Shown here one piece after another: positions 23,377 to 26,689 of a stretch of DNA of 33,356 bases. The stretch's first letter is position 1. Each line of letters opens with the position of its first letter. The position numbers were made by a program, and so were the translations under genes. A model generated the notes under the pieces. The model saw only the letters and a program-made list of their open reading frames with translations, did not search any database and had not been told where the DNA came from. Source of the stretch: a bacterium (GTDB lineage Bacteria > Patescibacteriota > Saccharimonadia > Saccharimonadales > Saccharimonadaceae). The DNA is taken from assembly GCA_030429935.1 (NCBI GenBank), contig JAUIGH010000006.1, positions 1-33,356 of the forward strand. Reading direction: 5' to 3'.

Positions 23377-25521
23377 TTACTTCTTGATCGGCAGCTTGAA
23401 CCCGAATACGCTACCCATGCCTTCGCGGGAGTGAAAGATGATCTCGCCGTCTTGGGCTTCGATGACTTTTTTAGCCAAGAATAATCCGACGCCCGTGCCG
23501 TCAGGGCGTTGTTTGCGGGCGTTTTCGGCACGGAAAAACTTGGTGAATAGCTGTGATTGTTTATCGCGCGGCACACCTATACCGTGATCGTGCACTTCGA
23601 ACACCACGCGACCACGCGCCGCATGCAGTTTGATCGTGATCGTTGTATCGCTTGGCGAATAATAAATCGCATTGTCGATAAAATTCATGATGACTTGGCG
23701 GGTTTTATCTTCGTCGATGTTAACCTGGAGCGGACCATCCGGCGCATGATAGTCGATGTGCTGGCCATGTGATTCGGCCATGGTTCGGATCGATTCGATC
23801 TCTTCGGCCACGACCTTAGCGATATTCACACTCTGGGCGTCGATCATAAATTTTCCAGTCTGCAACCGCGATACGTTCAGGAAATCGCCGATCAGCCGCA
23901 CCATGCGTTCGCTGCTGGTGTAGGCTTCGGTCAGCAGCTTTTCCTGTTGCTTGGTGATTGTGCCGGCGTCGCCTTCGAGCACCATGCTAATGTAGCCTTT
24001 GACACTGGTCAGCGGTGTACGCAATTGGTGTGATGCCATCGACACAAATTCGTCTTTGGTCTCGTCGAGTTTTTTGAGCTGCTTGTTCGATTGACGCAGT
24101 TCCTTGGTGGCGGCATCGATGCGCTGCTGTAGGGTCGTGTTGAGTTCACGCAGATTTTCCACTGAGCGCGCGTTCTGAATCGCAATTGTCAATTCATCAC
24201 TGACCGCCGCCAGCACACGCATGTCACGCTCACTATACGCCCCACCGAGCCGCTCACGGATCAAGACAAAACCAAGATCATCGCCGAGCGGTAATAGTAG
24301 TGAGTACCTTCTAGTAAGCAATTTTCTAATTATTGCGCTGTCATAGATCGTTTCTTCGCGCTCGATATCAACAATTGGCTCGCTCACCTCGCCGAGGTAC
24401 ATATGCAAACCATCTATATCTTCTCGATTAAGCGTAAGTTTCCTCCCCTTTGTCGATACTATGTCCGAACTATCTAGCCGGCGCACCACAAACGAAACGC
24501 TTGATGCATGCATGGTCCGCAAAATAATCTCGGCGGATTGGTCAAGTAACGAACGCAAGTGAACAGTCGACGTTAATGCAGAGCCGAGTTCGGCAATGAA
24601 ATCGTCTGTATTATACTGCGTATGATAGAATATTCGATCCGTAACCCGATCAAAAAACGCTTTAATGGGCTGAAAAAGAATTGCGAGCACTAGTGCTATG
24701 AAGATATTTATCGGACCGGCAATTGTAGTGGTAATATTCGCTGAACTAAACGCAATCTCAGATACAATGTACGCGCTAAAGAAGTATACAGCCCCTAAAC
24801 TTGCTATCGTAGCCAGATATCCAATCGTACGAATAGTTGCTAATCGAATGTCAAACAAATTGTGCTTGGCTATCGCATATACACTTGCACCGACAAATAG
24901 CAGCAACCCTACAGGGCCATACGCGACGAAATCGTAATTTCCCAGCATCGGCAATATCAAATTGCATGCTGCACCGATAGAGGCACCTGCCACAAATCCG
25001 TAAAGTAACACCCTGTACTGTTGTCTGGTCTTTTTTGCAGCATGTCTAGCTGCGTGCAATAATAACGCATTTCCTATCAATAACCCCCCTATAATTGCTA
25101 GTCCGTAGAAAATTAAGGGCAGAGTCTGGGTCTGTATCTGCCCGTCGACAATGCTAACCCCAATAAAACCTGGCATAACACTTGCACATCCGAGCAAAAT
25201 TGTCGCAATGTCCAGCAATTTGACAGTTTGTCGGTCGAGTTTATCGGGCACGATAGCATTACAAAAATGCACGAAGCTGACTGTCAACCAGGCAGCAACA
25301 CCGTAACTAATTAACGCAACCATGAACTGCATATTGCCCGTCGAGACTAGGTAGACCGCATTCGTCGTCACCCATGCGGCCATAGCATACGTCATCACCG
25401 CAAACAATATATTAACTTTGTTGCGACGAGCCTGTGTAAAAACCAGCGTACCAAGAAGTACATTTAGAAACGCAATTACAATCAAGGCTGCTGGCTGTGT
25501 ATCGATGCCCACGTCAGTCAT
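23377..25521 (-). CDS. Sensor histidine kinase with N-terminal 7TM-type region and GAF-like domain
   Basis: Multiple TM helices, H-box VSMASHQLRTPLTSVKGYI, NFIDNAIYYS, DHGIGV, GTGVGLFLAKKVIEAQDGEI. Confidence 0.92.
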   Translation of the reverse strand: MTDVGIDTQPAALIVIAFLNVLLGTLVFTQARRNKVNILFAVMTYAMAAWVTTNAVYLVSTGNMQFMVALISYGVAAWLTVSFVHFCNAIVPDKLDRQTVKLLDIATILLGCASVMPGFIGVSIVDGQIQTQTLPLIFYGLAIIGGLLIGNALLLHAARHAAKKTRQQYRVLLYGFVAGASIGAACNLILPMLGNYDFVAYGPVGLLLFVGASVYAIAKHNLFDIRLATIRTIGYLATIASLGAVYFFSAYIVSEIAFSSANITTTIAGPINIFIALVLAILFQPIKAFFDRVTDRIFYHTQYNTDDFIAELGSALTSTVHLRSLLDQSAEIILRTMHASSVSFVVRRLDSSDIVSTKGRKLTLNREDIDGLHMYLGEVSEPIVDIEREETIYDSAIIRKLLTRRYSLLLPLGDDLGFVLIRERLGGAYSERDMRVLAAVSDELTIAIQNARSVENLRELNTTLQQRIDAATKELRQSNKQLKKLDETKDEFVSMASHQLRTPLTSVKGYISMVLEGDAGTITKQQEKLLTEAYTSSERMVRLIGDFLNVSRLQTGKFMIDAQSVNIAKVVAEEIESIRTMAESHGQHIDYHAPDGPLQVNIDEDKTRQVIMNFIDNAIYYSPSDTTITIKLHAARGRVVFEVHDHGIGVPRDKQSQLFTKFFRAENARKQRPDGTGVGLFLAKKVIEAQDGEIIFHSREGMGSVFGFKLPIKK

Positions 25522-26264
25522 TATACACAGCTAACCAATCTCTTCCCGAGCTTGATCATACCAGCCGCTTTGCCAGCGTTGCTAGTAGCTGTATCTTTAA
25601 CTTTATCGAGAGCACTTGACGGACGAATCAAACAAAATTCTAGCGACATCCCCTCGTCATTTTCGCCTTTAACACGCGCTGACGGGATGATTCCGTAACT
25701 TTCCAACAATTCCACCGTTCGTGATTCAGCTGTAAAAAGCCAAACCACTTGGTCTTGTTTCAGCGCGGCTTCGTCGCTGATAGCGACTGCACCGCCGATC
25801 ATTGTCAGAAAATCGATACGCGGGTTCGCGCCTTGCTGTTTAGCTTCATGTGAGTATGCCCTGGGATTCACGACAAACCGAGTCATATCATACACGCTGT
25901 CATGCCCGGCCAAAACTCCACTTCGTTGCAACAACGATTTGGCATCGTTTTGCATGTCAGTTTCCTCACCAAGCATTTGTATACTTAGACAGGTTTCTGG
26001 CAATTGGCCTTTCGCTTGGTCAAGATATGTCAGACGTAAACAAGATCGAAAACGGTCATCGTTTCCCAGCACTGCAAGTGATCGCGTAAGATAAAGGCTC
26101 CCGTCGTCATAGTAATCTGGATCTTCAGCTTGATCCCAACCTTTCCTCGCTGCATATTCAGCCCTCAGCTGATACAGCTCCTGTACTCTAGGATGCGTAT
26201 AGTCGAGAGTGAGCAGACCGGGTGCATCCTGTTCGCGGCCTCTTGGTATTTCTACGGCGCTCAT
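25521..26264 (-). CDS. LuxI-like autoinducer-synthase-fold (GNAT-related) protein
   Basis: LRAEYAARKGWDQAEDPDYYDDGSLYL ... CLRLTYL ... YDMTRFVVNP matches in order the R..F...GW...D.YD...R...(E/D)..RF pattern of LuxI-family synthases; start trimmed to ATG 26264. Confidence 0.6.
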   Translation of the reverse strand: MSAVEIPRGREQDAPGLLTLDYTHPRVQELYQLRAEYAARKGWDQAEDPDYYDDGSLYLTRSLAVLGNDDRFRSCLRLTYLDQAKGQLPETCLSIQMLGEETDMQNDAKSLLQRSGVLAGHDSVYDMTRFVVNPRAYSHEAKQQGANPRIDFLTMIGGAVAISDEAALKQDQVVWLFTAESRTVELLESYGIIPSARVKGENDEGMSLEFCLIRPSSALDKVKDTATSNAGKAAGMIKLGKRLVSCV

Positions 26265-26320
26265 GGTAGTCACTATACACTAGTTTGCACCTGATACGAA
26301 AAGCTTATACACTATGAACC

Positions 26321-26689
26321 ATGACCAAGATCGCAATTATCGAAGATGATCCGGTGATTAATCAAATGTACCGCATGAAGTTTGAGGCGGATGGGTTCGA
26401 TGTCGAGATGGCGAGTGACGGCGAGCGTGGCGTGGCGCTAGTGCAGGATTTCAAACCAGACATTATCTTACTTGATCTACAGATGCCAGTAATGAACGGC
26501 GCCGAAGCCCTGACGAAGATTCGCGGCAACGATTGGGGCAAAGACATCCCCGTCCTGATCCTGACCAACCTCGGCGAAGAAGAGGCTCCCGAGCAACTGA
26601 AAAAGCTCGGTGTCACACACTACCTCGTCAAAGCCGACTTGACACCAAAACAAGTCGTGGCTCGCGTCAAAGACACACTAAAAATCTAA
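26321..26689 (+). CDS. Single-domain response regulator (CheY-like receiver)
   Basis: IAIIEDDPVINQMY, DIILLDLQMPVMNG, ILTN, YLVKADLTP. Confidence 0.93.
   Translation: MTKIAIIEDDPVINQMYRMKFEADGFDVEMASDGERGVALVQDFKPDIILLDLQMPVMNGAEALTKIRGNDWGKDIPVLILTNLGEEEAPEQLKKLGVTHYLVKADLTPKQVVARVKDTLKI

Follow-up and report, generated by a model that had tools for sequence, protein, structure and literature searches.

In the ComQXPA system of Bacillus, the receptor domain varies on a conserved kinase core and regulator (PMC4008528), a polymorphism that the same paper credits to Tortosa 2001. For CPR bacteria, pairs of LuxI, CqsA or PpyS homologues with sensory kinases were predicted in 2020 (PMC7567580), and the adjacency of LuxI and kinase genes in these organisms is in that sense already known as a prediction. 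The locus examined here resembles both. Like ComQXPA, it has the gene of a putative signal-processing enzyme beside that of a polytopic kinase with a highly variable N-terminal membrane domain, and its kinase core and response regulator are conserved. As with the distinct communication groups of ComQXPA, the enzyme and the receptor domain would, judged from sequence comparison, constitute a pherotype, as both are variable and co-inherited where kinase core and regulator are conserved. The LuxI genes adjoining sensor kinases in the main text of PMC7567580 have their counterpart in the similarly ordered PF00765 matches obtained here from other CPR bacteria. In contrast to ComQXPA, the module is too tight to accommodate a gene for a peptide precursor (a gap of 56 bp on one side of the enzyme gene, an overlap with the kinase on the other), the receiver is divergently transcribed and carries no DNA-binding domain, and whole enzyme classes change instead of the alleles of one enzyme. 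The main text of PMC7567580 contains no receiver-folD chassis, no other slot enzymes and no exchange of enzyme with sensor, and a search of open-access main texts returned no publication on this locus or on an exchange of enzyme classes.

The window, i.e. the whole stretch of 33,356 nucleotides that was analysed, lies on contig C60; the MAG to which it belongs has 823 kb and is 88% complete, and its relatives at this locus are Saccharibacteria, in line with the CPR lineage proposed in the initial annotation. A putative synthase of 247 amino acids (25521-26264, minus strand) is followed by a kinase of 714 amino acids (23377-25521, minus strand), the stop codon of the former and the start codon of the latter sharing one base as TAATG at 25521. 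The kinase matches HisKA_7TM (PF16927) with 31.2 bits against a cut-off of 28.6, as well as HisKA (61.5) and HATPase_c (88.5) in Pfam, which places it among the HisKA_7TM kinases, and it is the sole PF16927 protein of the genome. Its 7TM sensor domain, residues 1-215 (24877-25521, minus strand), was delimited by PF16927, by the end of the association with slot class described below and by an AlphaFold2 model; the remainder (23377-24876, minus strand) consists of a variable linker or GAF-like region, HisKA (residues 489-556) and HATPase_c (603-713). On the other strand, 56 bp from the ATG of the synthase, a stand-alone CheY/DivK-like receiver begins with the ATG at 26321 (26321-26689, plus strand; PF00072), which lacks an output domain and is highly conserved in the family. 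It is adjoined by the convergent folD (methylene-THF dehydrogenase/cyclohydrolase, PF02882/PF00763; 26686-27501, minus strand), which serves as a marker of the locus. The overlapping stop and start, the 7TM histidine kinase and the receiver on the opposite strand had all been described in the initial annotation, and each of them was recovered.

The 56 bp of the divergent intergenic region (26265-26320) probably contain the promoters of receiver and synthase. Across loci this region is weakly cassette-specific (upstream 50 nt, same-slot versus different-slot pairs, z=5.6). In many loci TATAAT-like boxes lie some 5-15 nt before the ATG of the receiver, as if its mRNA were leaderless. The AlphaFold2 model of the sensor (24838-25521, minus strand; pLDDT 76) shows seven helices and, after TM4 and before TM5, a hairpin. 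The nearest solved folds are GPCRs, with E-values of 3e-4 and weaker and TM-scores up to 0.68, a likeness of a low-depth model that may only mirror a generic 7TM bundle and is no evidence of homology. Elsewhere in the source genome, a pair of neighbouring NRPS-type genes (G000:C49 17483-26270, L206:3484-12271), whose products of 1981 and 949 aa contain AMP-binding, condensation and PP-binding domains, is located near a recombinase and a histone-deacetylase-like gene; the pair may be misbinned.

The 247-aa protein carries R34-x2-Y37-x3-K41-G-W43, D50-x-Y-D53, R77 and D126-M-T-R129-F-V-V-N-P, i.e. all motifs that had been noted before, although the one given as D..YD actually reads D-x-Y-D. On its own, the protein has no match in Pfam, NCBIfam or the PDB, viral Nsp11 and cytochromes (E>0.6) being rejected as chance matches from the PDB, and a scan of genome contigs with this single protein returned nothing; family profiles alone worked. 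The family was built from whole-genome searches, which gave three distant relatives and then eleven rows including the protein of the window. Between the latter and its ten divergent homologues, R34, W43, D50, Y52, D53, R77, D126 and T128 are invariant, and R129 is kept in all but one member, which has Lys. The position of the catalytic Glu of LuxI is taken by the invariant Asp126, and the spacing from Arg to the aromatic residue in the 247-aa protein is +3, not +4 as in LuxI. The order of synthase and kinase recurs in the homologues wherever the contig extends far enough, except in G039, where the kinase reading frame lacks its N-terminus. The invariant residues and the recurring order both speak against a chance resemblance.

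When the profile of the eleven-row family was compared with all PDB sequences, five entries were found at E<=10, all of them AHL synthases: EsaI (4.6e-5), TofI (1e-4), the 4-coumaroyl-HSL synthase 6wn0 (RpaI, 0.003) and two sequences named autoinducer synthase (BjaI, 0.02). PF00765 does not match the 247-aa protein at E<=10, and its single match among the 11 family members, at 0.017, fails to reach the cut-off; PF21926 (FeeM) does not match it either, and scores four of the 11 members at 13.9-21.1 bits, under the cut-off of 27. With LuxI proteins from CPR bacteria, the family aligns in hhalign over some 163 columns at a probability of 93.5-94.8% (E 2e-7 to 5e-8). A fold search with the AlphaFold2 model of the 247-aa protein (pLDDT 70, pTM 0.72) has BjaI at the top, with TofI, EsaI, MesI, LasI and FeeM also at E<=1e-4, the TM-scores being modest (about 0.45-0.53 by query length); AHL synthases come first, and FeeM (TM up to 0.53/0.71) and other GNATs follow close behind. 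Since profile matches, alignment with the CPR LuxI proteins and fold search agree, with FeeM close behind, the protein is classified from sequence and model as a remote LuxI/FeeM-like acyltransferase. The LuxI-like synthase of the initial annotation holds remotely, at the profile level, and the HMM and fold comparison proposed there put AHL synthases first with FeeM nearly as close; that it is LuxI proper, or that it makes an AHL, is not supported in this way. With LuxI/LasI the protein shares fold, profile similarity and, for the most part, the residue signature; it differs from them by falling below PF00765 detection, by the exchange of Glu for Asp, by an Arg and an aromatic residue that stand one position closer together and by a longer insertion ahead of the DxTR motif. 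In the 88%-complete genome, no LuxR-type receptor domain (PF03472, Autoind_bind) was found. FeeM is not known to belong to a kinase cassette.

A true AHL system, in which a divergent LuxI would use SAM and acyl-CoA or acyl-ACP for an AHL that the kinase senses in the manner of LuxN, is a special case of, and compatible with, the cassette explanation preferred below, and I regard it as possible though rather unlikely. Besides the purely AHL-synthase profile matches and the conservation of R34, W43, D50, D53, R77 and, save the one Lys, R129, it is favoured by the top fold match, as BjaI is a CoA-dependent AHL synthase, and by the SAM synthetase of same-genus genomes, the source MAG (88% complete) having no detected one. 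Against it stand the missing PF00765 match, the invariant Asp in place of the catalytic Glu, FeeM-like matches that are equally good, and the fact that no free acyl carrier protein was detected in the source MAG. In other lineages of the Patescibacteria, PF00765 does find a few LuxI proteins. Four of these were inspected, and in each the gene immediately next to LuxI, or next to the ThiF that adjoins LuxI, encodes a 7TM-type kinase.

Because the synthase family, used in an alignment scan, yielded no conserved stretch, the receiver was taken as bait instead, which revealed the slot. The bait yielded 80 Saccharibacteria loci; folD adjoins the receiver in 71 of the 76 that have enough flank, and among the 245 genomes and 61 genera of the family, 151 and 49, respectively, carry the receiver (E<=1e-40). 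The receiver, folD and the cytoplasmic part of the kinase constitute a conserved chassis, with a slot between receiver and kinase whose content differs among loci and comprises various small-molecule enzymes. The neighbourhood, whose conservation the initial annotation had proposed to check, recurs as synthase-kinase order in homologues and as the chassis across the Saccharibacteria; that annotation had missed that this folD-receiver-kinase core is fixed and that the synthase is one of many types of slot enzyme. The commonest slot protein is methyltransferase-like (PDB profile matches to SAM-dependent methyltransferases, best 2e-4); as another relative of LuxI it was rejected, at an hhalign probability below 1%. 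No other kind of enzyme accounts for as many slot families as the LuxI/FeeM-like one, which is found by itself, with ThiF as fusion partner or neighbour, or next to a SAM decarboxylase. Other slots hold a polyprenyl synthetase with UbiA, a PLP decarboxylase, or a pyruvoyl arginine decarboxylase with an LPG-synthase-like protein. ComQ, too, belongs to the polyprenyl synthase fold class. Tandem modules occur in some loci (e.g. L090, L099), and in some that have no slot gene a shorter kinase of about 450 amino acids with few predicted TM segments lies directly beside the receiver. Some slot genes match no known enzyme family and a few loci have longer operons; these cases, the loci that lack a slot gene, and the SAM synthetase and free acyl carrier protein not detected in the source MAG were counted against the cassette reading.

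Several slots are of interest in their own right. A small SAM decarboxylase-like gene (PF02675) lies beside a LuxI-like family in L029, L048, L077, L092 and L109; this family lacks the second Arg motif and found no match in a PDB search. The pair suggests that decarboxylated SAM or an amine like it is acylated, a chemistry that is not known to serve as a signal. LuxI-like proteins that adjoin a ThiF/E1-like protein or form a fusion with it occur in L017, L018, L020, L025, L031, L044, L060 and L099, and such pairs are also found in other CPR lineages, beside 7TM kinases. The slot regions of L175 (3246-5449) and L084 (2756-4907) contain ABC transporter genes (permease-like and ATPase), possible signal exporters.

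The slot enzyme and the sensor are inherited together. In a first set of 42 loci, with kinase residues 1-235 taken as sensor, sensor identity was 30.8% for pairs with the same slot and 20.1% for pairs with different slots, whereas the identities of kinase core, folD and receiver were the same for both kinds of pairs; the sensor effect persisted when folD, receiver and kinase were regressed out (0/5000 permutations). The set was then enlarged by 100 whole-genome loci and cleared of duplicates (n=66, MAG data, with slot classes set by BLAST clustering and several of them singletons). Here the nearest neighbour by 7TM sensor was of the same slot class in 60 of 61 cases, as against 22/61 for the kinase, 24/61 for folD and 21/61 for the receiver. 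Sensor identity was 27.5% for same and 16.7% for different slots (z=20, 0/2000 permutations); these permutations do not account for all of the tree structure, and the three chassis proteins as negative controls argue against a phylogenetic artefact. Among the 24 loci outside the first set the result was replicated (sensor 19/19, chassis proteins 7-10/19). Slot class changes five times on the 7TM tree, the minimum for six states, compared with 17 times on the tree of the remaining kinase and 16 times on that of folD and receiver. Without the methyltransferase class, kinase core and receiver are also slightly associated, with z of about 3 versus 20 for the sensor. Plain phylogeny as the cause was rejected, since folD, receiver and kinase core do not track slot class. 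For the four kinases beside LuxI in other CPR lineages, scores against the Saccharibacteria sensor classes did not separate the classes.

Sliding windows along the kinase show association with the slot (z about 8-18) up to residue 210 or so and none from about 216; the fast-evolving stretch 341-400 has none either. The association ends at residue ~215, at a conserved LFDIR motif that closes the 7TM domain. Pairs of loci with recent swaps agree with an exchange on an otherwise unchanged chassis: L034 and L038 share 96% identity in folD, 95% in the receiver and 97% in the kinase, with 14% in the sensor and different enzymes, and over this pair and L092/L143, whose cassettes are likewise unrelated, the values are 95-96%, 95-100%, 96-97% and 14-18%, respectively. 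In these pairs the coding sequence of the receiver is alike from about its first codons, whereas the upstream region and the enzyme differ. As the kinases of recent swaps differ up to about residue 450, i.e. into the linker, the unit of exchange is variable at its kinase end, and enzyme plus 7TM domain as the sole unit was rejected.

The explanation I consider likely is a pherotype-like cassette, in which a synthase and its cognate 7TM receptor domain are swapped on a fixed two-component circuit. The LuxI/FeeM-like acyltransferase would make a small diffusible, probably N-acylated molecule, which would be secreted and bound by the 7TM domain of the co-translated kinase, and the kinase core would pass phosphate to the divergently encoded stand-alone receiver. 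Enzyme and receptor domain, often with the intergenic region, would be exchanged as a unit by recombination on the chassis of kinase core, receiver and folD; related Saccharibacteria would therefore drive the same circuit with different signal chemistries. Signalling itself is what I infer here, and the module of signal production and sensing proposed in the initial annotation gains support, on comparative grounds, from the co-inheritance of enzyme and sensor. A bolder form, which I hold to be somewhat more probable than not to apply, is a plug-in platform on which whole small-molecule chemistries are swapped with the cognate 7TM domain, so that dialects switch between close relatives; with a similar, slight leaning, these chemistries would comprise acylation, alone or with ThiF-type activation or SAM decarboxylation, as well as methylation, prenylation and decarboxylation.

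The same co-inheritance would result if the slot enzyme made or modified an intracellular or host-derived metabolite that the 7TM kinase monitors for the same cell, without any communication, and the slot decarboxylases and methyltransferases could indeed act on polyamines or other metabolites. However, if one specific metabolite had to be monitored, it would be difficult to see why the chemistry is exchanged wholesale while the circuit stays as it is, and LuxI/FeeM-like families are the most numerous in the slot; metabolic sensing of this kind appears improbable. Overlapping genes and strict pairing could also mean that, instead of making a ligand, the enzyme binds its 7TM domain as a protein and is co-inherited because of this physical contact, but the unrelated folds and multi-gene sets in the slot (polyprenyl synthase with UbiA, SAM decarboxylase with LuxI-like, LuxI with ThiF) and the retained signature residues R34, W43, D50, D53, R77 and D126 make this very improbable. 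Hitchhiking at a recombination hotspot, with the enzyme travelling by proximity and no functional link, is hardly credible, for although adjacency alone gives some linkage and the conserved motif at one boundary might promote recombination, hitchhiking predicts common unrelated cargo and broken pairs, and what is observed is one enzyme class per sensor clade with the minimum of changes, in a pairing that holds over classes with only ~28% sensor identity.

Under the preferred reading of a synthase and receptor cassette, the joint swapping of an enzyme and the membrane domain of its receptor suggests an interchangeable device for chemical communication. For the question of how ultrasmall bacteria that depend on hosts perceive one another or those hosts, this locus offers a circuit that is conserved, defined by its genes and modular at its input, together with a catalogue of matched enzyme-receptor pairs; ligands are therefore predictable from the enzyme and testable on the adjacent receptor. 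If the reading is true, pherotype exchange would widen from the alleles of one enzyme to whole signal chemistries, and the locus would provide a route to new small-molecule signals and their 7TM receptors.
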